From Cladochytrium replicatum (lineage: Eukaryota; Chytridiomycota; Chytridiomycetes; Cladochytriales; Cladochytriaceae): 64,000 nucleotides of DNA. The position numbers and the translations under genes are program-made. Shown piece after piece: positions 31,201-60,821 of the stretch (positions within the stretch are counted from its first letter, which is position 1; every line of letters starts with the position of its first letter). Where the stretch lies: contig JAHLKD010000101.1 in NCBI GenBank assembly GCA_025526935.1, positions 124,001-188,000 of the forward strand, in the 5' to 3' direction. The notes under the pieces are model-generated. The model worked only from the letters and a program-made list of their open reading frames with translations. It ran no database searches and was not told the origin of the DNA.

Positions 31201-34200
31201 AATATTTTGGTTAATTCATGTTCAATAGATTATGGACTAATTGCTGAGATTATCTTGTTCTCAGAGGGATTCGAGCAAGCAAAATCTCTCTCAGGGAAAG
31301 TTGTCAACCTTTACAAGCTTTGCGTTGAACAACTATCTCAGCAAGATCACTATGATTTTGGAATGCGGGCTGTAAAATCTGTGCTTATAATGGCAGGAGC
31401 ACTAAAACGCAGTGCACCTGAATTAACTGAAGAAGTGGTTCTAATTAGATCTCTCAGAGATTCAAACTTGCCAAAGTTTATTGCAGAAGATATAGGGTTG
31501 TTTAAGGGTATATTGGATGATCTATTCCCAAGCATTGTAGTAACTGAAAAAGACTATGGACTTCTTGTTTCAACCATGAAAGAGAGAATTCAAGAGCGTC
31601 ACTTAGACATTATTGATACATTTGTCACTAGAATATGCCAACTCTATGAGACAATGAAAATTAGACATGGCGTTATGTTGGTTGGGCCAACGGGAGGAGG
31701 AAAAACTTCCTGTTATGAAATATTACAAGAGTCAATGAACAGATTAGCAGAAAAGCATCCATCGTCAGACCACCAAAAGGTGAAAACGTGGGTTTTGAAT
31801 CCTAAGGTAACTGGTAGTTTTTAAGTATTGACTATCAAGTCTGATTGTATCCAGTGTGTTAGTATGACAGAACTCTATGGAGAGTTTAATCTGGCAACCA
31901 TGGAGTGGAAAGATGGCCTAATTGGCTATATTTTTAGACAGCAAGTTGCTGAAAACTCTCTAGATGAGAAGTGGACAGTCTGTGATGGACCAGTAGATGC
32001 ACTTTGGATTGAAAATATGAATACAGTGCTTGATGATAACAAACTCTTGACACTCATTAATGGAGAAAGAATAAAAATGAACAACACTATGCATATGTTA
32101 TTTGAAGTTGCAGATCTTGCAGTTGCTTCTCCAGCAACCGTTAGTCGATGTGGTATGGTATACATGGATCCTACCAATCTTGGATGGAAGCCATTTGTCA
32201 ATTCATGGGCAAGAAAACTTCCTAAATTTGTTCCCAACGAGTTAAAGGAGCTATTTCTGGGCTTATGTGACACTTACATGGGGCTGGGGTTAAAATATAT
32301 CAGAAAGTTCTGCAAAGAGTCTATTCCATCAGTTGACCTAAATCTTGTCGCTAGCACATGCAATTTGATCTATACATTTATAAATAGGAAAGAGATAGAC
32401 TTTACTCAGAATATATGTGACTTGAAAATACTATTTTCCCATCTATTTGTATTTTGCTATGTCTGGGGTGTAGGAGGAAATCTGGCAGATGGTAATCAGG
32501 AGAACTTTGACACATTTGTGCATGATTTGTTTGAGCAAAAAAGTATACCTGATGTTCAGCTTCCTTCATCAAACAACATTTTCTGCTACTTTGTTGATAT
32601 TAAGTCAAAAACATTTTGTTTATGGGATGATCTGGTTCCCCAATTTAAATATAGTTCAGAAACTCCATATTTTCAAATGATTGTACCAACTCCTGACACT
32701 GTGAAGTATTCGTATCTGCTAGAAGCATTACTTACAAATGGATATCCAACACTTTTCACAGGAAACACTGGAGTGGGAAAGTCTGTAATAATCCAAGACC
32801 TCATGGATAAAATATGTAAAAAGAATCTGTTTGTACCAGTTGTTTTAAATTTTTCTGGACAAACAACTAGTGCTCAGACACAGCATTATATGGAGCATAA
32901 GTTAGAAAAGAAAAGAAAGAATATTCTTGGAGCACCATCAGGGATGAATAAAATTGTGCTATTTGTGGATGATTTGAATATGCCAAAACTAGATACCTAC
33001 GGAGCTCAGCCTCCCATAGAACTAATTCGTCAGTATATTGATTGTGGTGGATTCTATGACCGTGAAAAATTAACTTGGAAAATAATCCAAGATATAGAAA
33101 TTATTGCAGCTTGCGCACCTCCAGGAGGTGGGAGAAACATTGTTACATCAAGACTTCTTCGCCGTTTCAATATGCTTAACATTCCTGCTCCAAATGAAAT
33201 GGCCCTAGCAAAAATATTCAGGTCAATTGTTGAGGGCTTTTTAAAGCCCTTCAGTGCTGAGGTGAGATCTTCTGGTGAAGGTATTGTAGGGTCATCAATA
33301 GAGATTTATCAAAGGATGTGTAGTGAACTACTTCCAACACCTGCAAAGTCACACTATACTTTCAATTTGCGTGATCTTTCCAGAGTTATTCAAGGTGTGC
33401 TTCAGGTGAAATCAACCATTGTGCAGTCAAAGGGAGAACTTGTTAAATTGTTTTGTCATGAATCAGCAAGAGTATTTCAAGACAGGCTAATCGATGAAAG
33501 TGATCGAATGTATTTCAACAACTTGTTATCTGAAGTGGTTGAGAAAAATTTTGCAGTATCAATTGCCAAAGAATCTTTTGTTCAGAAGCCTATTATTTTC
33601 GGTGACTTCCTCAAGCGCGGAGTTCCTCCTGAAGAGAGACTCTACACAGAAATGACAGACATGAAAGTTCTTAATACTCTTCTTGAAGAGTATTTAGAGG
33701 AATATAATGTAACATTTAGCAAGGAGATAAGACTCATATTCTTTATGGACGCAAAACAGCACATAACAAGAATTTCACGTATTATACGCCAGCCTCGAGG
33801 AAATGCTTTACTTGTTGGGGTAGGTGGAACTGGGAAACAATCATTGACAAGGCTGGGTTGTCATATCTCAGATTTTCAATGCCACCAAATTGAACTCACT
33901 AGAACATACGGAGAGACAGAATGGCGTGAAGATATTAAAAAGCTTTACAGATCTGCAGGACTTGAAGGGAAAAATACTGTGTTCCTACTGACTGACACCC
34001 AGATTAAGAATGAAACCTTCTTAGAGGACATCAATGGAATATTGAATTCTGGAGAAGTTCCAAATCTTTTCGATTTTGATGAACGTGAAAGAATTCTAGG
34101 GGAGCTGCGACATGTTGCCAGAGAAAAAGAGATGTCAGAAGACAGGGACTCAATCTATCAGCTTTTCATCAATCGTGTCAGAGATAATCTTCACATTGTT

Positions 34201-37200
34201 TTTGCTACAAGCCCAGTTGGAGATACCTTTAGAAACCGTTGTCGAATGTTTCCAAGTTTAGTGAACAGCTCAACAATTGATTGGTTTGATGAATGGCCAA
34301 GAGATGCTCTCTTGTCAGTTTCACAGCGATTCTTTGAATTTGTGGACCTTGGCTCTGATGAGATGCGCCAAAAAATATCTGAGATGTGTGTTGAAATTCA
34401 TTCAACAGTTGGTGAGCTTGCAGTACTCTATTACGCAGAGCTACGAAGAAGATATTACACTACACCAACATCTTATCTTGAGCTCATTAATCTGTATATA
34501 TCTATGTTACAAGAAAAAAGAAAAGAGCAAGGGTCTCAAAGAGATCGTCTGAAGAATGGCTTAAATAAGCTTGCAGAAACAAACGAGCTAGTTGCAAAAA
34601 TGCAGATTGAGCTTGAACAATTAGGCCCAGAACTGAAACAAAAAGCTCAAGATGTAGAAGTTCTTATGGTTAAGATTGCCAAAGATCAAGAGATTGCAGA
34701 TGGCGTCAGAAAAGTTGTCTCTGAAGAAGAGGCTATTGTCAGAGAAAAAGCTACTCAAACTGAAGCAATTGCTGAAGAGGCACAAAAAGATCTTGATGAA
34801 GCACTACCTGCTCTACAAGCTGCTTATAAAGCACTTGACAGTCTGGAAAAGAAAGATATTGCAGAGCTCAAAGTATTTACAAAGCCACCAGAGTTGGTGC
34901 TTATGGTACTTGAAGCTATATGCATATTTTTTAAGGTCAAACCAGATTGGGAAAACTCAAAAAAATTATTATCAGATCCTCAGCTGATGAGAAAAATGGC
35001 TGAATATGACAAAGACAATATCCCAGAAGTAATTACAAAGAAGCTTAAAAAATATATTGACAATCCAAACTTTAATCCAGAAGCTGTTGAAAAAGTTTCA
35101 AAAGCCTGTCGGAGTATGTCTATGTGGGTGATTGCTCTGGATCTCTATTCAAGAGTGTTTAAAGAAGTCCAACCAAAACGTAGACGACTTGAAGAAGCTC
35201 AAGCAACACTTGAGGCAACACGTGCCAAGCTTGCAGAGAAAACGGCAGCTTTGCAAGAAGTGGAGGTCCAGCTTGAAAAGCTGAAAAGCAAATATGAGAC
35301 ATCAGTAAGTAGCAAGAAACAGTTGTCAGAAAAAATGGAAGAAACTACCAGGCGTCTTGCTCGAGCAAGTCGCCTCACAACAGCATTAGCAGACGAGCAA
35401 ATACGGTGGTCAGAATCAGTTGAATATTTAAACCAGCTTATTGAATCACTTGTTGGGAATATATTCTTGAGTGCTGCAGCTGTTGCATACTATGGTGCAT
35501 TCACTTCAAATTATCGGCAAGAGCTGATTGTTCGATGGTCAAAGCGCTGCAATGAATTGGGAATTCCAATATCTGATAATTTTTCGCTTTTTGAGAACTT
35601 GGCAGATCCAGCAGTTGTGCGTGATTGGAACATTCAAGGCCTACCTGCAGATCCTCTATCTATTGAAAATGGCATTCTTGTAACCAGAGGGAGAAGGTGG
35701 CCACTTATGATTGACCCACAAGGTCAGGCAAACAGATGGATAAGAAATATGGAAGGACTTGAATTAAAGGCAATAAAGCTCACCGAGGCAAAATTTCTCC
35801 GGTCCTTGGAAAATGCTATTCGTACTGGGCTCCCTGTATTACTGGAAGATGTAGGGGAGCATCTAGACCCTGCACTTGAGCCACTTTTATTGAAACAAAC
35901 AGTTCGACAAGGAGGCAGACTTCTCATCAAGCTTGGAGACACATTTGTTGAATATGACAGAAACTTTAAATTATACATAACAACAAAACTACCTAATCCA
36001 CATTATCTCCCTGAGGTGTGCATTAAAGTAACAATCATAAACTTTACGGTCACGAAAATGGGCTTAGAAGGTCAACTCCTAGCTGATGTAGTGAAACGTG
36101 AGAAGCCAGAACTAGAAGAACAAAGAAATACTTTGATCATTAATATTGCAAACGATAAAAAGCAGCTTAAAGATATTGAAGAAAAGATATTAAAGCTCCT
36201 TTTTAACTCTCAAGGAAACATTCTAGATGATGAGGAACTAATCAATACATTAAATCAATCCAAAATTACATCTGCTGCCATCAAAGAGAGAGTCACACAA
36301 GCTGAACAAACAGAGAGGGAGATTAATATTGCTAGAGAAAAGTATAGACCAGTTGCAATCCGTGGGTCTGTTTTGTATTTTGTTGTTGCTGACCTTGCAG
36401 AGATTGACTCCATGTATCAGTTCTCATTGAAATACTTCAAAAATTTGTTCAATCTCTGTATCCAAGAAGCAGAAAAGTCAGATGACCTGCAGAAGAGAAT
36501 TAACATCCTCTGCAAAAATATAACATATACCATTTTCACAAACATATCACGAGGCCTATTTGAGCAGCATAAGATGCTATACTCATTTATGATTTGTAGC
36601 GAAATTTTAAAGGAACAAAAGAGTATTAGCAGCATTGAGTGGTCTTTCTTCATACGCGGAGTAGGTATATCTAACAGGGATCTCCCACCTAAGCCAAATG
36701 TTAAATGGCTAACTACAAATATGTGGAGAAATTGTTGTGACTTGGCAGATACATTAGTAAACTTCTCCTATATGAAAGAACATATGACTATGTATACATC
36801 AGATTGGGAAGCAATAGTAGAATCTGATAACCCTTTCCTTGAGACAATTCCAGGTGGCCAGAATGCAGAGAACATTTCTCTATTCCAGAAGCTGTTATTG
36901 CTCAAAGTTCTTCGTGAAGAGAAATTAGTTCCATCTGTTGTTGAATTTGTGAGACAAAATCTTGGTGTTGAGTACATTGACATAGCTCCATTGGATTTAG
37001 CGAAGGCATATAAAGATACTAACAGCCAGACTCCTTTCATTTTCATTCTCTCTTCTGGATCTGATCCTGTCAGTGCACTTATGAAGTTTGCATCTTCAAA
37101 GGAAATAAATATGCAAGACAGACTTCACATGATCTCGCTTGGACAAGGTCAGGGTCCTATTGCTGAAGACCTTGTTCGGAGAGCAATGAACTCTGGTGAT

Positions 37201-39144
37201 TGGGTGTTTTTGCAGAATTGTCATCTGGCAGCTTCTTGGATGAACCGCTTAGAATCAATTGTGAAAGAATTTTCAAGCTCTGACAGTCAAATTGATCCTA
37301 ACTTCCGTTTGTTCCTTTCATCAATGCCTTCAAAAGTATTCCCTATTGCTGTGTTACAAGAAGGAGTAAAAGTAACAAATGAGCCGCCAAAGGGTCTCAG
37401 AGCAAATCTTGCAAGAAGCTTTGCAGATGTGTCAAAAGATCTCTTTGATGAGCATCCACCTCAAGGAGTCAAATTCAAAAAGTTATTGTTTGGTGTTTGC
37501 TTCTTTAATGCTATTATTCATGAGCGTAAGAAGTTTGGCCCTCTTGGATGGAATATTCATTATGATTGGAGTAATTCTGATCTAGAAGTAGCCATCACCA
37601 TAGTGAGGAATATTTTGCTTGAGCAAAAGACAATACCATGGGATGCTCTGCTGTACCTAACTGGAGAGATTACATTTGGTGGACGTGTGACTGATGATTG
37701 GGACAGAAGAACACTAAAATCTATGCTTTCTAAATATTACACGCCCCTTATCTTGGATAATGGATATAAATTTTCATCTTCCGGAATCTATTATGCTCCG
37801 CCTGATGCTGACTTGCAGGTATTCCGAGAATATATTGAAAGTCTTCCTTTCACAGAAGATCCATCAGTTTTTGGCATGCATGAGAATGCAAACATCAGCT
37901 TCCAAATTCAGGAGACTAGGAAGCTTATCAAGACACTACTTGATGTGCAGCCTCGGATTGTAAGTACAAGCGGAGGCCAAAGTAGTGAGGAGAGCGTAAT
38001 TCAAGCTGCAACAAGCATTCTAGAGGAATGGCCAAATCAGATACTTTTGGAGATTCCAGCAGACGAGAAGGAGGCTTTAAATGGATTGGTTGCTGCTGTC
38101 CTATTTAAGAAGGATAAATCAGGACGTATGCTTAACTCTCTGAGTACTGTCCTCTCTCAGGAAGTTGTGAGATTCAACAAATTATTGGGAATTGTTAAAG
38201 CGTCTCTCCAGACATTAATCAAAGCTGTGAAGGGTTTGGTGGTTATGAGCGCCGAGCTTGACCTTGTGTTTAACAGTCTAGTGAATAATGAGGTGAGATT
38301 TTTAAACATTCTAATTGCTGTAAATCAACTAAAATTTGCCGAAGGTTCCTAGTTTGTGGGCTAATGCAGCATACCCTTCACTTAAACCGTTAGGTGCATG
38401 GGTTAAAGATTTGATAAAGAGGATTGAGTTTGTGTCACAATGGGCAGAAACTGGCCAGCCTCAATCTTTCTGGCTCTCTGGTTTCTTTTTCCCACAAGGT
38501 AAACTGTTCATGTAAATATGTGGCTGTCTAGCTGACACTTTTTAGGATTCCTCACGGGAGTGCTGCAAAATCATGCAAGATTACATCATATTCCTATCGA
38601 CACTTTAACATTCTCCTTCTACTTTACGGAAATGGAGGATCTGGAGTTTTTGGCTGGATCCCGGCCTCCGACAGTTCAAGCAGTTAAATCTGTCAGTCAA
38701 CTTGCTACTGATGCAAGCTCGGATGGTGTGCTTATTCGAGGATTGTATATTGAAGGTGCTCGGTGGGATAGAGAAAAGAGTCTTTTACAAGACCCTTTTC
38801 CAATGGAAATGTTCTCGGTATGAATGTTCACCATGTGAAATAAGAATCGGGCGATTGACAATACTTTCTAGTCGCTACCATTGGTTCGATTCGCCCCATC
38901 TCAAACACCACAAGATAGTCAGCATTTGTATGTAGCTCCACTGTACAAAACATCTGCACGGGCAGGCACACTGCTGTCTACGGGACATTCAACCAATTTT
39001 GTTCTCTCTGTCAACATTCCTTCCGACAAACCACAAGACTTTTGGATTGCTAAAGGTGTCGCTCTACTGGTAAGCATCCTTTTCACTGCAAGTTATTGTC
39101 TCAAAACTTATTTTGTGCAAAAATAGTGTCAATTGAACGAATAA
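25215..39144 (+). CDS. Axonemal inner-arm dynein heavy chain (DNAH6-like), complete
   Basis: Motor subunit of a single-headed inner dynein arm of the flagellar axoneme. Twelve exons keep phase: 25215-25586, 25640-26248, 26312-28415, 28466-29033, 29095-30397, 30451-31180, 31229-31806, 31855-38292, 38345-38498, 38546-38817, 38872-39069 and 39127-39144, giving about 4447 residues. All four nucleotide P-loops are intact: AAA1 [16 protein letters not shown] (about residue 1766), AAA2 [10 protein letters not shown] (about 2047), AAA3 [10 protein letters not shown] (about 2391) and AAA4 [10 protein letters not shown] (about 2743). The coiled-coil stalk and microtubule-binding tip follow (about 2970-3270). 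The gene ends with the C-terminal cap [18 protein letters not shown] and [15 protein letters not shown]-terminal [15 protein letters not shown] and the C-terminus favour DNAH6 over DNAH3/7/12. It has AT-rich central exons and a 6.4-kb exon 8. Confidence 0.95.
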
Positions 39145-39214
39145 GAGCTTCAAATCGACTCTACGAATAAGAGCTTCAAATCGACTCTACGAATAAGAGC
39201 TTCAAATCGACTCT
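39139..39214 (+). repeat. 26-bp tandem repeat, three copies, spanning the dynein stop codon
   Basis: The unit GAATAAGAGCTTCAAATCGA plus CTCTAC occurs three times (the last truncated). The first copy includes the final Glu codon and the TAA stop, so the stop context is repeated downstream in the 3' UTR. Confidence 0.9.
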
Positions 39215-45891: not shown

Positions 45892-45949
45892 CACAGCTCT
45901 CGAGGTCTGTCGTGGTAGAAATTGTTTGTTACAGAACTTCCGTTGTAAC

Positions 45950-46262
45950 TTCTTGGAAAGTGTCCTGGTGGACAGAATTGTATTGCTAGTAACATTGATA
46001 GAGAGGTCAGTTGTACTTGATAGAGATCACTGAAGTACCATCAATGAGTTGAGAAAGTGTCCGGGCGGACAGAATCCTATTGCTAGTAACACTGATAGAG
46101 AGGTTAGTTGTACTTGATAGAGATCACTGAAGTACTGTCAATGAGTTGAGAAAGTGTCCAGGTGGACAGAAAATACATGCCTCAACGTCTGTTGTGATGC
46201 AAATTGTTTGATACATACAAAACTTATATTGCGTCTTCTTGGAAAGTGTCCGAGTGCACAGA
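45950..46262 (+). repeat. Left tandem array of element I (about 97-bp units)
   Basis: Units contain GAAAGTGTCCxGGxGGACAG, a palindromic GTCC-N4-GGAC core, and the spacer TTGCTAGTAACATTGATAGA. The periods between cores are 97, 97 and 92 bp. Confidence 0.85.
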
Positions 46263-46469
46263 AAGAACAATAGCTTCGTTTTAGCTTCCCTATCACATCA
46301 GGTTTTACTCGGGTCTGATTCTTGACCCGAGAAGGGTTTTGCTACTGCCGACCCGGATCTGACCCAAAAATTTTTCATGAAAACCCAGCAATTGGGTTGG
46401 GTACATTTGGTCAATGGACCCGGACCCTAACCGAAAGACCCTAAAACCCGCCGATCCTTACTGAGTGGG

Positions 46470-48230
46470 CTGTCAACTATAATCCTCTGGCACATCCTCT
46501 ACTACTTGGACGTCACACCAGGTGGGACAACACAGCTCAGGTGCTTGGAATAATGCATGAGTATGGACTTCAGTGCAAGATACCACCATTACACTGGGCT
46601 CCTTTCCTACCTCTAAAGCAAACGCTAATTGTGGCACATGCCAACTCTGCAGATATGCACCGGAAGTGGCTGCCTTGGCTACGGCGCACCTTGGTTTGGT
46701 ATGTAGAGCAACTAACTGATCAGTCAAATAGGGTGATTCTGCTTGGCTCCGCCTGGCGTTTCTGTCACAAGATTGGTGGATTTGTGAGAACCCCAAAAGC
46801 GCTTCTTGAGATGATTGACAACTTGCATACCGCTCAGGCTCACAGTGGCTGGGGAATCCAGAAATAAGGCAGCAGATACAGCCCACCAACAGCCTCCTCC
46901 CTGCTGGAGGCTTACTAGTGCAACACTCAGCTATTGGTCGGGGTGAGATGGTGGCAATTGGAGCACAGAAGGAGAAGTGGTTGCTGAATTATATATTGAG
47001 AGAGTAGCTGAGGTGTACAATCGGGGAGGTAACCGGTGGGCCAGCTTCACCACTTTTAGAGCACTATTGAAAAGGATGTAGAAGGTATTAGGACGAGCTT
47101 TCAGAGGCAGATCTTGCTCTCAGGACAGGGTTATGTGGAGTGTTTAGGGGACTATGATCCTCTGAAGCAACAGTTACAGGGGAAAATGGTAGACCTATCT
47201 GTATGTGGGAAGAACCAGTGGCAAATTTGACAAGAGCCTCTGTGGAAACATTCTGACTTTCGTTTGGGTGCATTCCCCTCACACTATGGCTCTAGAGAAC
47301 TTGGTTTACTGCACACTGAGCCTGACCAGTTTCTGTCAGATTATTATGCTTGCGGAGAAGTAGGAGGGTCCGCTGTACAGATAGATAGTGATACAGACAG
47401 TGCAGTGGATATACTCCAGTCAATGATGATTCACAACAATGCGCAATCTGGGATTCCACAACAAACTCTATAAATGGTTCTGTATCTGTTCAGGATGGTG
47501 CTGTCTCAATTAGATATTCAGTCGTTGAGCAGAAAGAAGATTTGTCATTGGAGCTAATGGTAGCTGAGAAAATCTAGAATATTCCAGCCATTTCATTTTA
47601 CCCAGAGGCAGTGGCACTTTTGGCAGCAGTAGATAATGGAGGTGGATCCCAGAAGGTCATCATCAGAGCACACAACATAGCAGCTGTAACAAAAGCCCAG
47701 GCTGTGCAGGTGCACCACACCAGGAAGGTACACACTTTTCCTTATGACCTGTAGAAAGGTTGTGAGATCTGGGTGGCAATGAGGAGGTTCAATGGACATG
47801 CATCCTGATACACAATACCAGATTGAATGGGTTAAGGGGCATCCCTGGCAACAAGCAAGCAGATGAGGCTGCTGAGCAGGTGCATAAGTTAATGCCTGGC
47901 ACACTCCAATTTAGTCAACTTCCTTCTTATGGTTGGTCTGGGCAGTCCCTAGATGACAACAGCTATCTCATGTGGAATAACCCTCGGCAGTCCATTGGGC
48001 AAATATGGAACCTTTATAGATTTAAATCATGGGGTGTCATGGCTCAGTACAGGATACCTTCAGGGATGCAAATGGATGTATCTGGGATATGGTGGGTGAT
48101 GATGAGTAGACAAAGAAGCACACTCCCAGAAAGGATTAAAAACATAATCAAAACAATATTACTGTTGGATAATGACTCAAAATTTGACAAATATTTGCCC
48201 ATGCCTGGCAGTCTAGTTGCCAAATAGGAA
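46470..48230 (+). pseudogene. Broken ORFs of a mobile element, one with RNase H-like motif
   Basis: Plus-strand fragments include 46541-46867 (HEYGLQCKIPPLHWAPFL, RRTLVWYVEQLTD) and 47823-48227. Just upstream of and across the start of the latter, two frames together read IEWVKGHP then GNKQADEAAEQ. This resembles the last active-site region of an RNase H domain (xxWVxGHxGNxxAD) as found in non-LTR and some other retroelements. A one- or two-base indel separates the halves, and multiple stops lie between the fragments. No reverse transcriptase core was identified, so the assignment to a retroelement is tentative. Confidence 0.4.
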
Positions 48231-48825
48231 CGTACCATTTGTATTTTGACAACTTGGTGCCCTTCTTTGCCCAAATCACGTTTGAGCAAATCTGGGAGCT
48301 ACCCTAGGTTTGACTTGTGCAAATAGGTTCAAACAATATTTGACAATTCAAATAATAAATTTGATTCGTGGCAGACCCTGCACATCGTGGTACGGCCCTC
48401 CCATGAGGGCCTCTCCTACCGCATGCCGGTTCCCTGCCTCAGCTGGTCAGGGCCATCTATCATTTTCGTTTGGTGCAAAATTCAAGGCTCCTTCACAGAT
48501 TATATCTGCAAGGCAGTGCTTGGGCGCTCCGCTCTGCACTGCCTTCCAGTTTTCCGTAACTCTCAAAATCTATGCCTGCTGTGTCTTTGCAAACAGAGCT
48601 GTTGGCGCAGGCCAGTACTAAGGATCGGCGGGTTTTAGGGTCTTTCGGGTCGGGTCCGGGTCCATTGACTAAATGTACCCGACCCGAGTGCCGGGTTTTC
48701 ATGGAAAATTTTCGGGTCGGATCCGGGTCGGGTATCGGGTCCAGTAGGAAAACCCTTCTCGGGTCAAAAGTCAGACCCGAGTAAAACCCGATGTGATAGA
48801 GAATCTAAAATGAAGCTATTGTTCT

Positions 48826-49430
48826 TTCTGTCCACGCGGACACTTTCCAAGAAGACGCAATATAAGTTTTGTATGTATCAAACAATTTTGCATCACAACG
48901 GACATCGAGGCATGTATTTTCTGTCCACCCGGACACTTTCTCAACTCATTGACGTACTTCAGTTATCTCTACCCAATACAACTAACCTCTCTATCAATGT
49001 TACTAGCAATAAGATTCTGTCCACCCGGACACTTTCTTAACTCATTGACGGTACTTGAGTGATCTCTATCAAGTACAAACTAACATCTCTATCAATGTTA
49101 CTAGCAATAAGATTCTGTCCACCCGGACACTTTCTCAACTCATTGACGTACTTCAGTTATCTCTACCCAATACAGCTAACCTCTCTATCAATGTTACTAG
49201 CAATAGGATTCTGTCCACCCGGACACTTTCTCAACTCATTGACGTACTTCAGTTATCTCTACCCAATACAGCTAACCTCTCTATCAATGTTACTAGCAAT
49301 AGGATTCTGTCCACCCGGACACTTTCTCAACTCATTGACGTACTTCAGTTATCTCTACCCAGTACAACTAACCTCTATCAATGTTACTAGCAATACGATT
49401 CTGTCCACCCGGACACTTTCCAAGAAGTCA
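48826..49430 (-). repeat. Right tandem array of element I (seven units, inverted)
   Basis: Units of 93-98 bp read CTGTCCACCCGGACACTTTC on the plus strand, then CTCATTGACGTACTTCAG. Five of the seven are almost identical. Open frames across the array are repeats of one translated peptide and not genes. Confidence 0.9.
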
Positions 49431-49540
49431 CAACGGAAGTTCTGTAACAAACAATTTCTACCACGACAGACCTCGAGAGCTGTGCTTTCTGTGCACCTGG
49501 ACATTAGAGTCGGTAACGTTCCAGCCACACCACAGCAAAA

Positions 49541-51976
49541 ATGGACGCCGCCTTTGTTAAACCAAAGCGTAAGGCAGCGTCCGACGCAAGCCAAAGACTA
49601 GTGGACAGTCATCCGCTTGACACACGGAAGCGAAGTCTGCCAGCCCCCCAAATTTCAGAGGCGTCCAGCGAGGGGAACATCATGCAGGACAAACGCAGAC
49701 GTGTATCAGGACACGGTGGCAACAACAGCGCTCGAGAGCCGAGCTCCACATCTTCTTCCAATGACTCCAGCGAGTTGGGCCCGGCTTCTCAGCATGCACC
49801 ACAGCTTCCTGCCGACGTTAGTTTTGCTGACTCTTCAGTGCGACAGGAGCCTGCAGCTGGATCAGTTCAACCATCAATGCTTTCATCAGACGCAGATGTT
49901 GATAGCATGTCGGACTGTAGAGGTAGTCGAGGCGGCATAGCGAAGGATTACTATAAGGTTGATAATGGTCTGAGAACATGTTTGGTTGCGAAATGCAAGT
50001 GGAGCCAGAAGGTCGATAAGACGGGATCAACAAAAAACTTCCTCCGGCATCTGAAAAACCACCATGGAAGTATTGCCAGGTCGCTTGGACTGTTGGACAT
50101 CGTCCCCAAGGGACAACAGACATTGAATTTCGGCTCGCAGGAGAAGGAGCAAAACTTTGTGTTCAATCCAGACGTAGCGTGGCGGTCGATTTTGGACTGG
50201 ATTGCTGCAGACAATCAGGCTTTTACTGTTGTGGAGAACGAGTTCTTTGTCAGCATGCTGAAGACTTTTCAGCCAAACTATACACCAAAGACGGCAAAAG
50301 CAGTGAAGCAAAAGGAGATGGATCTTTACGATAGGCAGAAGGAGCTCATTAAAGGTCTGATTGTTGGTTCGCCTTCAAAAGTATCAATAACAGCTGACTG
50401 TTGGACATCGAAGAACCAGATTTCTTTTCTTGGAATTACTGCCCACTTCATCACGAAAGAATGGGAGCCGCAGGACTTGCTGCTGCAGATGATTCCGATG
50501 GTTGGAAAGCATGAAGGCGTCGCCATGGCTAGTCAGCTTGTCAAGTGTCTGGATGAATTTGGCATGCTATCGGGTGAACGCTTATTGTGCATTACAACCG
50601 ACAACGGTTCAAACAACTTTACCATGAGTGCTAAGCTGGAGACGCTCTTGGAAGATAGGGATATTGCGTGGTCTGCAGAAACTCAACACATGCGGTGTAT
50701 GGCACACATTATCAATCTTGCAGCAAAGGATTTTATCGATACATTCGCGCCCGCAGGGGACACAGTCGCAAATGACGATAACTCCGGCGTTAATGTCATA
50801 AACCTTCTTCGACGGCTAGTCAGAGGAATCCGGTCTTCCCCAAAACGACGAAGCTCATTTATTGATTCGTGCCGATTTGTGAAACTGGTTCCTCTATTAC
50901 CAATTATCGATGTGACAACTCGCTGGAATAGCACGTTCTATATGGTCAAACGAGCCTTACAGCTACGAGAGGCAATGGACAAAATATGCTGGATTGAAGA
51001 TTCTTTGAAAGATTGGTCAATAAATCCAAAGCAATGGGAGGTCCTACAGAAGATCCGGGATGGTTTGAGTGTTTTCGAGGTTATATCAAAGGCAATCGAG
51101 GGGTCTAGATATCCAACACTTCCGCTTGTTATTCCATTTTACAACGATCTTATCGATCAACTGGAGGACCTAGAGGATGCAGAATTAGATGAAACTTTCA
51201 CCAAAGCATTTCGAAATGCACTAGATAAGCTGAGAATATATTACTCAATCGCTAAGAGCCCGTGTTTAGCAGTTGCTACGGTACTCGATCCTCGTTTTAA
51301 GGATCAATATTATCGATTTTCAAAGGCTTGGGAGAAAGATGTAGGAAGGGATCAGGTCACCCTAGTGCGGAAAGTCTGGGAGGAATCGTATAAGTCACGG
51401 AAAATCAAGAACAGTGGTGCCGATGTTTTTGGAAACACGCCAGAACGTCGACACGATTCGAGCGGAGCTTCCGGTGATAGACAGAAAAAAACGGACGCTG
51501 AACGCTTGAGAGCCATTAGATCCGTTTTCATCTGGCAAGAAGAGATTCCTGAGGAAAAAGATGAGCTGGATCGCTATCTTGGCGATCAGGTACTCCGCGG
51601 TATTGATTCTGATGGGAAGCCAATCAATATTATGGACTGGTGGAAGACCGTTGGAAGTGTGAACTTTCCAGCCCTAAGCCAGATGGCAATGGACTATTTA
51701 GGAATACCAGCAACAAGCGCTCCAGTCGAACGAAAGTTTTCAGCCGGGGTTGATTTGGTACCTGCAACTCGCAACCGCCTTGCTCCAAGAACAATAAATG
51801 CGTTGATGTGCCGTCATGACTGGTTGCATCAATTGAGTGCTGAAGAACCGTTCAAAAATGATTCCCTAGATTCAAAAAGTGATGTTAGTGAGGATTTTGT
51901 AAAGGTGCATAATTTTGGCGAGGATTTTGATGTGGTATTAGAGTTGGAAGCAACTGATGATAACCCACTCTTTTAA
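49541..51976 (+). CDS. hAT-superfamily transposase, intact ORF
   Basis: Single-exon ORF of 811 residues with an ATG 57 bp after the end of element I. N-terminal 120 residues are Ser-rich and disordered. A BED-type zinc finger follows (CLVAKCKWSQKV, then FLRHLKNHHG: Cys-Cys-His-His). The RNase H-like core has SITADCWTSKN (first Asp, about residue 286), LCITTDNGSNN (second Asp, about residue 354), MRCMAHIINLAAKD, DVTTRWNSTFYM and, at the end, the hAT dimerisation block with SAPVERKFSAG (catalytic Glu, about residue 730). All three catalytic acidic residues and the zinc ligands are present and there is no internal stop, so it could be active. Its stop codon overlaps the first bases of the terminal repeat of element II. 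Confidence 0.93.
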   Translation: MDAAFVKPKRKAASDASQRLVDSHPLDTRKRSLPAPQISEASSEGNIMQDKRRRVSGHGGNNSAREPSSTSSSNDSSELGPASQHAPQLPADVSFADSSVRQEPAAGSVQPSMLSSDADVDSMSDCRGSRGGIAKDYYKVDNGLRTCLVAKCKWSQKVDKTGSTKNFLRHLKNHHGSIARSLGLLDIVPKGQQTLNFGSQEKEQNFVFNPDVAWRSILDWIAADNQAFTVVENEFFVSMLKTFQPNYTPKTAKAVKQKEMDLYDRQKELIKGLIVGSPSKVSITADCWTSKNQISFLGITAHFITKEWEPQDLLLQMIPMVGKHEGVAMASQLVKCLDEFGMLSGERLLCITTDNGSNNFTMSAKLETLLEDRDIAWSAETQHMRCMAHIINLAAKDFIDTFAPAGDTVANDDNSGVNVINLLRRLVRGIRSSPKRRSSFIDSCRFVKLVPLLPIIDVTTRWNSTFYMVKRALQLREAMDKICWIEDSLKDWSINPKQWEVLQKIRDGLSVFEVISKAIEGSRYPTLPLVIPFYNDLIDQLEDLEDAELDETFTKAFRNALDKLRIYYSIAKSPCLAVATVLDPRFKDQYYRFSKAWEKDVGRDQVTLVRKVWEESYKSRKIKNSGADVFGNTPERRHDSSGASGDRQKKTDAERLRAIRSVFIWQEEIPEEKDELDRYLGDQVLRGIDSDGKPINIMDWWKTVGSVNFPALSQMAMDYLGIPATSAPVERKFSAGVDLVPATRNRLAPRTINALMCRHDWLHQLSAEEPFKNDSLDSKSDVSEDFVKVHNFGEDFDVVLELEATDDNPLF

Positions 51977-52019
51977 ATATAAATTGTTGTTTAGACTGTT
52001 CATCTGTTGAAGTACCGTC

Positions 52020-52935
52020 CAGGAGTTGAGAAAGCGACCGCCTGGACAGAATCCTATTACAAGTAGTATTTGTAGAGAGGTTGGTGGTACTTGATCGAGA
52101 TCAGTGAAGTATCAGTGAAGTACCGTCAATGAGTTGAGAAAGTGTCCGGGTGGACAGAATCTTATTGCTAGTAACATTATTAGAGAGGTTAGCTGTACTT
52201 GATAGAGATCACTGAAGTACCGTCAATGAGTTGAGAAAGTGTCCGGGTGGACAGAATCCTATTGCTAGTAACATTGATAGAGAGGTTAGTTGTATTGGGT
52301 AGAGATCACTGAAGTACCGTCAATGAGTTGAGAAAGTGTCCGGGTGGACAGAATCCTATTGCTAGTAGTATTTGTAGAGAGGTTAGCTGTACCTGATAGA
52401 GATTACTGAAGTCCCGTCAATGAGTTGAGAAAGTGTCCAGGTGGACAGAATCGTATTGCTAGTAACATTGATAGAGAGGTTAGTTGTATTGGATAGAGAT
52501 CACTGAAGTACCGTCAATGAGTTGAGAAAGTGTCCGGGTGGACAGAATCGTATTGCTAGTAACATTGATAGAGAGGTTAGTTGTATTGGGTAGAGATCAC
52601 TGAAGTACCGTAAATGAGTTGAGAAAGTGTCCGGGTGGACAGAATCTTATTGCTAGTAACATTGATAGAGAGGTTAGTTGTATTGGGTAGAGATCACTGA
52701 AGTACCGTCAATGAGTTGATAAAGTGTCCGGGTGGACAGAATCGTATTGCTAGTAACATTGATAGAGAGGTTAGTTGTATTGGATAGAGATCACTGAAGT
52801 ACCGTCAATGAGTTGAGAAAGTGTCCGGGTGGACAGAATCCTATTGCTAGTAGTATTTGTAGAGAGGTTAGCTGTACCTGATAGAGATTACTGAAGTACC
52901 GTCAATGAGTTGAGAAAGTGTCCGGGTGGACAGAA
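52020..52935 (+). repeat. Left tandem array of element II (ten 97-bp units)
   Basis: GTCC cores at 52144, 52241, 52338, 52435, 52532, 52629, 52726, 52823 and 52920 are spaced exactly 97 bp apart. A first degenerate unit at 52036 is 11 bp longer because of a small internal duplication. Confidence 0.95.
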
Positions 52936-52967
52936 ATCTGGGAGACTGAGTGTCACTGTGTCTGTCT

Positions 52968-53216
52968 GGGTAGAATAGGATTCTGTCCCCCCGGACACTT
53001 TCTCAACTCATTGACGGTACTTCAGTAATTTCTATCAGGTACAGCTAACCTCTCTATTAATGTTACTAGCAATAAGATTCTGTCCACCCGGACACTTTCT
53101 CAACTCATTGACGGTACTTCAGTGATCTCTATCAAGTACAGCTAACCTCTCTATCAATTTTACTAGCAATAAGATTCTGTCCACCCGGACAGAATCCTCT
53201 CTATCAATGTTACTAG
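52968..53216 (-). repeat. Inverted array segment interposed between linker and ORF copy 1
   Basis: About 250 bp of array units in opposite orientation to the adjacent ten-unit array. The matching position near copy 2 (about 56425) lacks it: there the linker joins directly to CAGTTTCTTCCCTAGC. It is therefore an insertion or inversion specific to this side. Confidence 0.8.
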
Positions 53217-53358
53217 CCAGTTTCTTCCCTAGCTTATTATTATTTTCAGATCGGGTAGAAAACTATAGTGTCAGGGAAGTATTATAGCATACATTCCTGT
53301 AACATTCCGGCTAAGAACACCGGGCCAGTATCTTCCCACGACAAACAGTACAAACACC

Positions 53359-55042
53359 ATGCCTCGAACTACAAAGAAGCGAGCGTTAAAACAATCCAGA
53401 CCATCATCTGAAAGAGAATCAAGTGCAGAACCTGTGACTGCACCTGAAACATCTCTGGCATCGGGTTCTGAAGTGGAAGCAGAAGAAGTTGGCCTTGATG
53501 TCAAATCGACAGATGTCAAATCGACAGCTCCTTCAAAGAAACCGGCGCGACGTGGTACTAAAGGGGATGCTGACTATTTGCTCATCGACGGACTCTGTCC
53601 TGCTTCAGACATACGACTTTGGTATCGAAAATTCAAAGCGAGCGGCCACAGCTACGACTCGGAGGCCTTCATCAGCAACTGTCAAACAAATCGTGATGAA
53701 TGCGGCCCAAGATTTGTTCTTCAAGGGTTGATCGACCGACTTAACTCTGACAGCAAGCTAGTTCGTCAAGCCCTGAACGAAATTCACGATGAATGCAGTG
53801 GACGAACGGAGTTCATAACAGCAGCAAACGCCTATCGTATGGAGTGCTTGAAAAGCTCTTCCTTTCAGAAGGAAACAACATTTCTGGACTTTTACAGGCG
53901 GCAGGGACACAAGTACGGCATTTACAGAGGAATGCCCGTCACTGCAAAGGTTGACTGAGTTCCAAGCGACCATCAAACGAGCAGATGAGGACCGTGAAAG
54001 GACAAAACAGGTCCTCAAACAGTCAGAACGACTGTTGAACATGACAAAAGATCTTGAAGAGACTGCAATGAACGAGAGAAGGACCCGCATCGCAGCAGAA
54101 GTGCGAGAGAAGGCTCTCATTGATGAATTGGGCAGGGCGGGTGCATTGATTCAGCACGGCGAGCACGAAGAGCTAGCAAGATTCAGGGAGATCACCGCTG
54201 CAATGGAAAGGGAGAAGCAGGCAACTTCCCAGGAGATTTCACAATGGAAATCACGTGTGACCGCCCTGGAGGGAGAGCTTGCTGCTCTGAAACGACAGGC
54301 TGGTCATTCAGAAGCTGCAGCACCTGCGGCGCCAACATCAACAGGCGGCCTAATAAGCATATCGTCGGCTATCAAGGGGATTGGTAGAATTCCGAAGGTA
54401 CATCGAACCAGTTCTCCAACGAGTTCCCTTGCATTGCTTAGCCTGCAGCAGCATCGTCGTACGGCTATCCTTTTGGTGAAAGAGGTCATCCAGGGTATCT
54501 GCTTCCAGATGCATAAGATCAATGAGGTTATTTATGACCTTAAATTGCCGTCTCTTCCACCAGCAATCAAGTACGTCAATGTAAACTACGAAGTCCTCTC
54601 CCGAAATGAGTTTTTACGGCCCATATTTGTTGAATCAGACGACCGCTCAAGCCGAATATCAACTTCAAGTAGCAGTTCTCGGAGCAGCCTTACTCTTCTT
54701 AGGGTGCACATTTTGCTCGGAAACTGGATACGGCACAATAATTCGCTAAGTACGTCTGCCACTATCTATCGCATGTTCAGGGCATTAGTGGATGCATATC
54801 CTTCTGAGTGGCTAAGGTTCTGGACGGCATACATCGGGCATCTTTCGTCCATAACGCTCCCTGAGGTGGATTGGAAACCTTGGAAGACAGGTTTAGCCAA
54901 GGATTTCATGCTTTCAAATGACGACATTGATCGGTTCATCAGGACTGGGTTGGCGAAGGACGTAACCAGTGGTGGATGGGACTCTGACGATATGAACCAG
55001 ATACAGAAGCTGATTTGGGCTGTTCCACCTATCAACTTGTGA
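53359..55042 (+). pseudogene. Coiled-coil ORF of element II, copy 1, one-base frameshift
   Basis: Two overlapping frames, 53359-53958 (199 residues, MPRTTKKRALKQS to MPVTAKVD*) and 53951-55042, are one gene broken by an extra T at about 53956. Copy 2 has GTTGACGAGTTCC where copy 1 has GTTGACTGAGTTCC. Without that base the product would be about 560 residues. It has a basic Ser-rich N-terminus; a compact domain with SDIRLWYRKFKASGH and CGPRFVLQGLIDRLN; a central coiled coil (RADEDRERTKQVLKQSERLL, then ITAAMEREKQ); a Ser/Thr-rich linker; and a C-terminal domain with AILLVKEVIQGICFQMHKIN, RMFRALVDAYPSEWLRFWTA and DWKPWKTGLAKDF. No nuclease or DNA-binding family was recognised. The sequence could be an accessory protein of the element. 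Confidence 0.6.
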
Positions 55043-55164
55043 TTGCTCAGTGGAGTTTTGTTTCTTTTTACGATAGTGTTTCTAAAATACACACTGTCCA
55101 CACAGACACAAAGTGTTCATGTAAATATCCGTGGTCTAACTCAAAATTCAATCAATCCTCTCCT

Positions 55165-55333
55165 GGGCAGCAAAAACCCGGCGGGTCAGGGTCGGGTACG
55201 GGTTTCAACCACTTCGGGTCCGGGTATTCCCTTTGTACCCGTCAGTGACCCGGCGGGTCCCCAGACAAACACGACCCGACCCAAAGGGTTTGGTGCGGGT
55301 CGCCACTGAAACCCGGACCCGACCCGGACCCGC
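55165..55333. mobile_element. Small GC-rich MITE-like insert with GGGTCGGG termini
   Basis: About 170 bp bounded by AAAACCCGGCGGGTCAGGGT on the left and the inverted CCCGACCCGGACCCGCCGAA then CCTTAG on the right. The same kind of TAAGG-TCGGCGGGT-GGGTCGGG terminus appears in element I at 46456 and 48618. It truncates copy 2 of the coiled-coil ORF within the LGNWIR codons. Confidence 0.6.
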
Positions 55334-55334
55334 C

Positions 55335-56283
55335 GAACCTTAGCCGTATCCAGTTTCCGAGCAAAATGTGCACCATAAGAAGAGTACGGCTGCTCCGAGC
55401 ACTGCTACTTGAAGTTGATGTTTGGCTTGAGCGTTCATCAGATTCAACAAATATGGGCCGTAAGAACTCATTTCGGTAGAGGACTTCATAGTTAACGCTG
55501 ACAAACTTGATTGATGGTGGAAGAGACGGCAATTTAAGGTCATGAATAACCACATCGATCTTATGCATCTGGAAGCAGATGCCCTGGATGACCTCTTTCA
55601 CCAAAAGGATAGCCGTACGACGGTGCTGCTGCAGATTAAGCAATGCAAGGGAACTGGTTGGAGAACTGGTTCGTTGTACCTTCGGAATTCTACCAATCCC
55701 CTTGATAGCCGACGAGATGCTTATTGGGCTGCCCATTGATGTTGGCGCCGCAGATGTAGCACCTTCTGAATGACCAGCCTGTCATTTCAGAGCAGCAAGC
55801 TCTCCCTCCAGGGCAGTCACACATGATTTCCATTGTGAAATCTCCTGGGAAGCCACCTGCTTCTCCCTTTCCATTGCAGCGGTAATCTCCCTGAATCTTG
55901 ATTGCAAGCTTGCCGTGCTGAATCAATGCACCCGCCCTGCCCAATTCATCAATGAGAGCCTTCTCTTGCACTCTGCTGTGATGCGGGTCCTACTCTCGTT
56001 CATTGCCGTCTCTTCAAGATCTTTTGTCATGTTCAACAGTTGTTTTGACTGTTTGAGGCCTGTTTTGTCCTTTCACAGTCCTCATCTGCTCGTTTGATGG
56101 TTGCTTGGAACTCGTCAACCTTTGCAGTGACAGGCATTCCTCTATAAATGTCGTACCTGTGTCCCTGCCGCCTTCAGAACCCGATCCCAGAGATGTTTCA
56201 GGAGTCACTGGTTCTGCACTTGATTCTCTTTCAAATGATGGTTTAGATTGTTCCAAAGCTCGCTTCTTCGTAGTTCGACGCAT
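55335..56283 (-). pseudogene. Coiled-coil ORF of element II, copy 2, deleted and truncated
   Basis: Inverted relative to copy 1. It starts MRRTTKKRALEQS (56283), then jumps from the GSGSEGG region straight to the segment equivalent to the end of copy 1's first half, losing about 130 codons. It keeps the frame across VTAKVDEFQATIK at the site where copy 1 is shifted, then has further frame breaks in the coiled coil, and ends at ETGYG where the GC-rich insert begins. It is a non-coding relic, useful as a comparator for copy 1. Confidence 0.7.
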
Positions 56284-56463
56284 GGTGTTGTTAATGTTTG
56301 TCGTGGGAAGAAACTGGCCTGGCGTCTTAGCCGGAATGTTAAAGGAATGTATGCTATGTTACTTCCCTGACACTATAGTTTTCTACCCAATCTGAAAGTA
56401 TTAATAAGCTAGGGAAGAAACTGTCTACCCAGACAGACCCAGTGACACTCAGTCTCCCAGATT

Positions 56464-56790
56464 CTGTCCATTTGGACACTTTCTCAACTTATTAACGTTA
56501 CTTCAGTAATCTCTATCAGGTACAGCTAACCTCTCTACAAATACTACTAGCAATAGGATTCCGTCCACCTGGACACTTTCTCAACTCATAGACAGTACTT
56601 TAGTGATCTCTATCAAGTAAAACTAACCTCTCTATCAATGTTACAAGCAATAAGATTCTGTCCACCCAGACACTTTCTCAACTCATTGACGGTACTTCAC
56701 TGATCTCTATCAAGTACAACTAACATCTCTATCAATGTTACAAGCAATACGATTCTGTCCAGCCGGACACTTTCTCAACTCCTGGACAGT
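56464..56790 (-). repeat. Right tandem array of element II (four 97-bp units, inverted)
   Basis: CTGTCC-N4-GGAC cores at 56466, 56563, 56660 and 56757 are exactly 97 bp apart, followed by the unique 60-bp terminal segment. Confidence 0.93.
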
Positions 56791-57051
56791 ACTTCAACAG
56801 ACGAACAGTCTAAACAACAATTTCACATTTAAACGATTGGGTTTTTAGCGGTTTATAATTTTTGGCATTTTCCGAGTGAAGATTTAGCGGTTTATTATTT
56901 AGCTGTACATTGTCACAGAGGCTGAAAAAAGGCGGTCATAATATAAAGATAGTTGTGTTGTGTCCGAGCTCATATGGTGGTGTTTTGGGAATAGAATACA
57001 AAGCTGAAGAGCGCAGAGGCAAGGCAAAAATACCGAGAGGAGAGGTATTCG

Positions 57052-58892: not shown

Positions 58893-60821
58893 ATGAATGA
58901 CCTAGTCTCAGAGTTCGATAGCCCCATGTACTGAAAATTCTTATTTTGAGGCATTTCCTGCACTCCCCTTGCTTCTAATTTGCCCATTTTATCTTATGCC
59001 GCACTGAACCAGCGGAACGCAGTATATCTTCCCGCACATCCCCTTTGATGGAAATGTTGGAAGATCCCTATTCAAGGCTTTTGCCAGCGCTCGCTCTCCC
59101 CCTTACGATTCACTCCATGTTGATATTTCCTTGCCATTCGGAAGCATTTCTCGCTTGGACAGAAAAAAAACTTCATACGCTGGCACCACAAGATCTTTCT
59201 CTGATCCTCACTTTGGCCGCTGTGTTGCAATGAACAACGTGATAAAGGCTTTCCTGTTGGCAAGGAAATATCTTCATGACTTTATGGTCTTCACATTCTG
59301 CAATTCCCGCTTCCATCATTCAAAATACCGTCGTAACCTTCTTCATTGTTTGATGCTGACTTCTATTCTGCCTCCAGTGCAGGTATTCCAAGATCACAGT
59401 CAAACGTGCGGGAGAGAATTGCGCGAGTTCGCGTGCCACGAAGCCAACGTCCGCTTGTGCGATTCATTGGCGGTTTCGTCAACGTGAGCAAATTTTCGAT
59501 CTGAGCAGCGAACATGGGCTAAACCGAAGTGTTTTACATTTCAGTCCTATGCGTTCCAATGGTTTGTCATGCTGGTCATTCTCGCCAACGTCATTGCAAT
59601 AGCACTCGAAACCGACGCGCTCTCCAATAGCGGATCTTCGTCGGTGCCCGTGGTGTTCTCGTATCTGGATCTGTTCTTCTTAGCCGTGTATGTGGTCGAA
59701 TTTGTCCTCAAGATTTACGTGGAGCCCATTGGATACTGGAAGGAAGCATACAACCGTTTCGATGCTGTGATCCTGTTCGTCAGTCTTGGACAATGGATAG
59801 CGCAATTCTACATGGCCAAATCCAACAACCTTACTTTCCTTAGGGTGTTGCGGTGTGAGTATCGCTCGATCCTCATGCTGGTGAATCTCAGCAGTCTCAC
59901 TTGACTTCATTTATTATCCCTATAGCTCTGCGTGCTCTTCGAGCTTTCAGATCCATATCGTTCATCAGGAGTCTCAAGGTTGTGGTCAACGCTCTGGTGA
60001 CAACCCTCACACGCAATGCGGTCGACATCCTGCTCCTCCTTGTTCTTCTCATGTTCATCTTCTCTGTGATGGGACACTACTTATTTGGTGATGACCCTTC
60101 CAATGCTGATGCGTACTCTAATTGGGGAACGTTCATCGATGGATTTTATACTCTTTTCGTGTTTGTCACAGTAAGTAGAGCAGTAAGTAGAGCAGGCTTT
60201 TGGACTAAGAAATGTGGACTTGTTATTTTCTATAGGCGGAGGGCTGGACGTCGTATCAGGACAATCTGACTGGTGACGGATACTACGGAAGCGAGGCGTT
60301 CACAGGTGCCTTTATCTTTATCGGCAACTTCATTATCTCCAATCTATTCATTGGAGTCATCTGTGAGGTTTGTCACACCTCTACATCTTCCTATTCGAAG
60401 AAGAATCCTTGTCATACTCCATTTCTAGAACCTCGAAGAAGCCACCGAAGCCGACCGAGCATTCCAGCAGGAGCGCAGGAACGCCGCCAAGGCCCAGAAG
60501 CGCGAGATCTTCCTTCGCAAGCAGCACAGGGACATGGTCCAGCTCCTCGCCGTGCGCAAGTCGGACCAGCAACGCAATCTTCAGCAGATCCTGCAGGACC
60601 TCGCGGGAACCTTGCGTCACGAGGACGTGATTCCGATGACGCACCTCTCGTGCGACCTGACTTGGCTCGAGACCTTCATGGTGTCGCTGCATTATCATGA
60701 GAACACAATGTACAGGATACAGCAAGTGGAGTTTGGGATTGCGAATACTCTTGCTGAAATTGGTAAATGCTTCGGTGTGACTGCTCCGATGAATATATTT
60801 AATGAATTGTTTTGGTGGTAG
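58893..60821 (+). CDS. CatSper-like single-domain voltage-gated cation channel
   Basis: Six-helix pore-forming subunit of the CatSper type (flagellar/sperm Ca2+ channel family; also reported from zoosporic fungi). Seven exons keep phase: 58893-58927, 59013-59332, 59383-59483, 59545-59854, 59926-60170, 60236-60367 and 60429-60821, about 511 residues. Helix S1 is FQWFVMLVILANVIAIAL; S2/S3 follow (VEFVLKIYVEP, RFDAVILFVSL); the S4 sensor has regularly spaced Arg (FLRVLRSLRALRAFRSISFI); S5 is DILLLLVLLMFIFSVMGHYL; the pore has TAEGW (CatSper TxDxW-like) near residue 338; S6 is FIFIGNFIISNLFIGVIC. A C-terminal Glu/Arg/Gln-rich coiled coil follows. The stop at 60821 assumes no further splicing at GTAAAT (about 60763), so the very end is uncertain. 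Confidence 0.85.

Follow-up and report, generated by a model that had tools for sequence, protein, structure and literature searches.

Background

The En/Spm transposon of the CACTA superfamily encodes a second protein, TnpA, in addition to its transposase, and contains many copies of a short motif. In Galileo, a P-superfamily transposon of Drosophila, the transposase is reported to bind tandem repeats located in the inverted repeats, and inversions are reported to have arisen by recombination between copies (PMC3688188, PMC4168063). The target octamers of TcBuster are described as having a central TA (PMC10512250). We analysed a stretch of 64,000 nucleotides from the chytrid Cladochytrium replicatum (positions 124001-188000 of contig C101, hereafter the window), and the genome searches covered the 50.5-Mb assembly. 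Positions 48619-55342 of the window very probably hold a complete copy of a hAT transposon that is young, is present in many copies and has two genes and three arrays of 97-bp units; the arms on either side are pieces of older copies, and the 10-kb segment to its right lies flipped compared with its orientation at the time of insertion. Its termini, target-site duplications and transposase are standard for the hAT superfamily.

Borders and copies of the hAT transposon

The features of the element are listed below in window coordinates (TIR, terminal inverted repeat; ORF, open reading frame).

48619-55342, + strand: hAT transposon copy 1, 6724 bp, termini defined by copies elsewhere
48619-48632, + strand: left TIR TAAGGATCGGCGGG
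48619-48825, + strand: subterminal zone of the left end (207 bp) with 10 GGGTC/GACCC words
48826-49446, + strand: left array, tandem 97-bp units upstream of the hAT gene
49541-51976, + strand: hAT transposase gene, 811 amino acids, open in the window (from Pfam, PDB and alignment)
52014-52935, + strand: array A, just after the hAT gene, in the orientation opposite to the left array, with a unit number that varies between copies
52974-53191, + strand: array B, about two units, oriented like the left array and located upstream of ORF2
53359-55042, + strand: ORF2, frameshifted in the window copy and open over 560 amino acids in the sister copy (L091:1645-3327, - strand)
55136-55342, - strand: subterminal zone of the right end (207 bp) with 11 GGGTC/GACCC words
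55329-55342, - strand: right TIR TAAGGTTCGGCGGG, 13/14 identical to the left

Positions 48619 and 55342 were taken as the ends of the window's element because copies elsewhere in the genome show borders and 8-bp duplications there. The terminus pattern always follows a T. It was found at 23 of the 30 loci L031-L060, and in the window it occurs at 48619 (+ strand), at 46460 (- strand) and, as the right-end variant, at 55342 (- strand). BLAST comparison of the seven other loci showed a left end that is diverged or cut in five, and no left end within the stretch in two (L043 and L048). The 6310-bp interior of the element contains two GGGTC/GACCC words, and 52,800 bp taken from the rest of the window contain 50.

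Among 40 terminus regions, 28 could be joined into 14 pairs; the 12 single ends were left out (L124 has no match to the terminus pattern). Perfect 8-bp target-site duplications (TSDs; 8/8 matching positions) flank 11 of the 14 full-length copies for which both borders were compared, with TGGTTGGG, TGCGTTAC and GCTCTCAC as examples of the matching octamers. None of 13 octamers, comprising these 11 TSDs and the two octamers of the window copy, has TA at positions 4-5. The 40 scored copies of the hAT gene extend over the full 2436 bp and were printed as 100% identical, and the 40 scored copies of ORF2 are 99-100% identical.

Several results weigh against this reading of the locus. Matching TSDs are missing from three of the 14 copies (those on C6, C40 and C8), and the window copy, taken alone, does not have one either. 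The distance from the terminus to the ATG of the hAT gene is 1116 bp in 11 of the 17 best-matching copies, and the same value is found in 7 of 23 copies of another set, with a range of 521-1129 bp; the length of the left array is thus stable in the youngest copies only, which makes a constraint on its length less likely. Selection on ORF2 was not detected, as its coding frame is no different from two control frames. Finally, the paralogue test of one of the two junctions restored by reversing the flipped segment (see below) relies on a 22-bp alignment to a locus that is 74% identical.

A copy on C23 is inserted inside a hAT ORF and is flanked by a perfect 8-bp duplication. A preference for self-insertion was considered, as the element itself is matched by 13 of the 61 unique terminus flanks from the window and the loci examined, but some of these are the two sides of one insertion and no such preference is claimed.

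The transposase and the second gene

The hAT dimerisation domain (PF05699) was recognised in the transposase with an E-value of 2.2e-20, and the hAT-like RNase-H domain (PF14372) with an E-value of 6e-5, which is under the curated cut-off. Hermes chains are its only matches in PDB (E-values of 2e-12 to 5e-12, C-terminal part), and the catalytic residues D286, D354 and E730 are the same in all of 10 aligned proteins. The closest database match is an unnamed metagenome protein (32% identity), and the best named relative is from Rhizophagus irregularis (31%). Its homologues carry BED and hAT domains. In the window protein, the corresponding BED-like finger retains C152, H170 and H175, Ser at position 155 replaces one Cys, and PF02892 gave no match. 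The window transposon is putatively Ac-like. Among young hAT segments, counted over the parts covered by the loci examined, 33 of 56 are free of indels and stops.

Intact copies of ORF2 exist in the genome, among them the sister copy with its 560 amino acids. ORF2 has no match above the cut-off in Pfam and no convincing match in PDB. No relative was found at an E-value of 1e-3 among the 7996 best word-sharing candidates from a collection of 5.8 billion proteins, and none was confirmed in viral contigs. An AlphaFold model built with no alignment has a mean pLDDT (predicted local distance difference test) of 46, the sole fairly confident part being a long helix at about residues 195-316, which is probably a coiled coil according to this model. 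Of 27 distinct young ORF2 segments, 17 contain neither indels nor stops, a share like that of the hAT gene. When shared changes are counted once, the ratio of nonsynonymous to synonymous polymorphism (pN/pS) of ORF2 is 0.77 in the coding frame, and the control frames give 0.81 and 0.62; the values for the hAT gene are 0.72, 0.74 and 0.69, respectively. A lower pN/pS of 0.57 (0.69 for hAT), obtained when changes were counted per relic, vanished in this way, and purifying selection on ORF2 is therefore not claimed.

The 97-bp arrays and their possible roles

The tandem-repeat analysis of the window found units of about 97 bp, one family in both orientations, in five tandem stretches (45956-46171, 48919-49420, 52008-52935, 52974-53191 and 56459-56796), in agreement with the earlier note on this DNA, which was made from the letters and their reading frames. 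The palindrome TGTCCN4GGACA is found in each unit; exact copies number 19 for the element and 24 for the whole window. The window and loci L001-L091 yielded 516 monomers with a length of exactly 97 bp, which agree with the majority base at a mean of 0.95, and many positions reach at least 0.99, palindrome arms included; these loci overlap, such that some monomers were counted twice and 96 are distinct. The earlier note had proposed a genome-wide search with the unit, and had named a satellite away from mobile borders as the outcome that would speak against its proposal. All of the 30 best-scoring array loci have hAT or ORF2 sequence within 1.5 kb, and a satellite independent of the element was not seen in these 30 loci, several of which overlap and which are the best-scoring of at least 263 matches.

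A left end could be assigned to 17 of the 40 hAT copies, and an ORF2 to 19. In these 19 copies, the hAT stop and ORF2 are 929-3650 bp apart, with steps close to whole multiples of 97. Array B together with its leader measures 349-354 bp in 11 of the 13 copies whose centre could be recognised, the other two being older copies in which it is short; three mid regions (L069, L078 and L085) have no such centre. As the length of array B is steady, the variation lies mainly in array A. Measured from the left end, the arrays start about 200 bp inwards, and more than 2 kb separates them from the right end. Arrays A and B together form a long inverted repeat, for which an RNA hairpin is predicted by folding without a shuffle control at that length. 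No Rfam match was found in the window.

The element could be mobilised as follows. The hAT protein would cut and paste it at the TAAGG termini, generating the 8-bp duplications; the borders are observed, and the enzymology is that expected of the family. The GGGTC zones would probably be recognised by the same protein. The left array and array B share one orientation, lie 95 to 170 bp ahead of the start codons of hAT and ORF2, and could act as control regions composed of tandem units for protein binding or promoter activity. Array A, which runs opposite to array B, may gain and lose whole units via unequal exchange or slippage, and ORF2, with its predicted coiled coil, might act as an accessory protein. 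By analogy with Galileo, control regions or tandem binding sites are the preferred reading of the arrays that precede the two genes. As a joint proposal, control by the left array and array B, whole-unit turnover of array A and an accessory role of ORF2 are tentative and, on balance, doubtful. Less probable still, and in our view unlikely, is a two-gene hAT system in which ORF2 would be a coiled-coil DNA-binding partner on the palindromic 97-bp units, the left array and array B would tune hAT and ORF2, and the variable array A, facing array B, would be a copy-specific dosage or hairpin-silencing switch. To our knowledge, no such regulatory system of arrays and ORF2 is known in hAT elements.

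A serious rival, to which we give slightly less than an even chance, is that the arrays are passive minisatellites and ORF2 a passenger with no role in transposition. The wide variation of array A among young copies would be expected from this, as would the missing selection signal on ORF2 and the broken state of ORF2 in some young copies, that of the window included. It accounts less readily for the presence of an array before both genes in the same orientation, for the share of young segments in which ORF2 is open, and for the many nearly invariant unit positions, although recent homogenisation would also produce the latter.

Flanking relics and a flipped 10-kb segment

The element is bordered by the following sequences.

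45892-46460, - strand: relic I, an inverted older left-end fragment with its terminus at 46460; its unique part is 87% identical and is followed by 38 bp of leader and then no hAT
45956-46171: relic I array, tandem units of about 97 bp
46461-48618, no strand: intervening 2.2 kb that separates relic I from copy 1 and is outside this transposon
55343-56833, - strand: relic II, part of an older copy from ORF2 back to the hAT stop, with ORF2 matches of 92% and 90%
56459-56796: relic II array, tandem units of about 97 bp

An ORF within 46461-48618 contains the string GNKQADEAAEQ and has no Pfam match; we take this string to resemble the end of a retroelement RNase H.

A sister transposon lies inverted at C101:189345-196164 (L091), 10 kb from copy 1, and over 6.7-6.8 kb the two copies are distinguished by 12 substitutions and 3 gaps. 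Relic II continues beyond this sister copy, from L091:8157 onwards. The octamers of copy 1 are GCCAGTAC on the left and GCCGTATC on the right, and those of the sister copy, read in its own direction, are GCCGTATC on the left and GCCAGTAC on the right. The octamers are thus swapped reciprocally, and the segment between the two copies has therefore been flipped, either by recombination or by misassembly. Flipping the 10,002 bp between the copies gives matching duplications at each copy and reunites the halves of relic II, giving an unbroken 231-bp alignment to an intact ORF2 (92.6% identity). At the other restored junction, the alignment with a diverged locus on C156 (74%) continues for 22 bp beyond the join, whereas in the unflipped state it ends at the border.

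Recombination between two inverted, near-identical copies explains the flipped segment, and misassembly would leave the same signs. That the flip is an assembly error between these copies, with no real inversion, is a considerable possibility, though we lean somewhat against it. Copies so similar could have been joined wrongly, and mismatched flanks were also found at the C8 copy, which lies about 8 kb from the start of its contig and has the right flank of a C23 copy. Recombination between such repeats is equally expected, and nothing in these observations is decisive.

Copies L119 (C8) and L103 (C23) share a common right flank on different contigs, and the copies on C58 and C14 share a common left flank. 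Exchange between copies, segmental duplication and misassembly are alternative explanations for both cases. Pieces of an ion-channel gene, one of them matching PF00520, lie at 59569-60269 of the window, inside the flipped 10-kb segment.

The foldback reading of the locus

The earlier note had read 45892-49485 and 51973-56833 as two foldback-like elements with termini of their own, CACAGCTC and TTTAAAT, bracketing the hAT gene. Much of its description of the window holds: the hAT ORF of 811 amino acids at 49541-51976 is borne out by the open reading frame and Pfam, about 57 bp separate the CACAGCTC end from the hAT ATG, and the hAT stop codon falls within TTTAAAT. The proposed ends were searched with queries of 66 bp from CACAGCTC and 65 bp at TTTAAAT, which gave at least 40 matches each, and 30 loci were cut out for each. 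The sequence at CACAGCTC runs into the hAT leader and coding region at 29 of 30 loci, the lone exception being the window's own left scrap (L031). TTTAAAT, which is the hAT stop region, is preceded by the hAT 3′-end at 28 of 30 loci; the exceptions are the right scrap of the window (L061) and the rearranged copy L066, in which just the final 27 bp of the hAT ORF remain ahead of this point. By eye, no direct duplication was found in the window just outside the ends of the two intervals. The 8-bp duplications anticipated by the earlier note do exist, but at the TAAGG borders.

Two foldback-like elements with inverted repeats built from arrays, mobilised by the hAT gene that they bracket, are therefore extremely improbable in the loci of this genome that were examined: inverted arrays do lie on both sides of the gene and the two arms of the window do end near its borders, but the supposed ends are internal to the hAT region at 57 of 60 loci, the three exceptions being two relics of the window and a copy with hAT sequence, and the TSDs sit elsewhere. 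The window element is a hAT transposon, not a foldback element. For the same reasons, the suggestion that hAT drives both arms as non-autonomous partners falls away. The alternative offered in the earlier note, a single composite with internal arrays, was right in kind and wrong in extent, as the element occupies 48619-55342, not 45892-56833, and the outer arms are parts of older, broken copies.

Other features of the window

A dynein heavy chain gene lies within 26000-38400 of the window and contains very long open frames, one of 2175 amino acids. The GC content of this region is 0.37-0.40, clearly below its surroundings, and its GC skew is positive. The window also contains a glycosyltransferase gene whose closest named relatives include chytrids (the best being Clydaea vesicula, 42%). 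Together with the dynein gene, this points to a chytrid fungus as the most likely host. Perfect short tandem repeats occur at 39137-39214 (three copies of 26 bp) and 12636-12711 (two copies of 38 bp).

Significance and comparison with known systems

A transposon with internal arrays can, through its broken copies, give the appearance of foldback elements, and genome-wide alignment of borders resolves such mimicry. As many near-identical young copies differ by whole units in one array and hardly at all elsewhere, the growth of arrays during or after transposition could be measured directly in this family. ORF2 is an orphan gene that dozens of copies carry next to the transposase, and is a candidate accessory factor.

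No hAT transposon with such arrays or such a second gene was found in the open-access literature searched, outside which most subscription journals lie, and the combination of internal variable arrays and a second gene makes the element a hAT variant for which no description was found there. The element resembles Ac-like hAT transposons (Ac/Ds) in the dimerisation domain and the D, D and E residues of its transposase, its short TIRs, its subterminal repeated words and its 8-bp TSDs. It differs from them in its second gene of unknown family, its internal variable 97-bp arrays, and a BED-like finger that has Ser for one Cys and does not match the Pfam BED domain. The central TA described for target octamers of TcBuster (PMC10512250) is found in 0 of 13 octamers of the window family.

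Foldback elements such as FB and Tetris (PMC4079207) are alike in having inverted, tandemly repeated DNA. In the window element, by contrast, the arrays do not form the termini, and the ends consist of 14-bp TIRs and GGGTC zones. The similarity to En/Spm lies in the second protein and the repeated motif; En/Spm belongs to another superfamily, and no sequence link between ORF2 and TnpA was seen. Galileo is alike in having tandem repeats of varying number inside a cut-and-paste element and in undergoing inversions through recombination between copies (PMC4168063, PMC3688188). It is a member of another superfamily and carries its repeats in long TIRs, whereas the TIRs of the window element are 14 bp long and its arrays are internal, where any protein binding would be putative.

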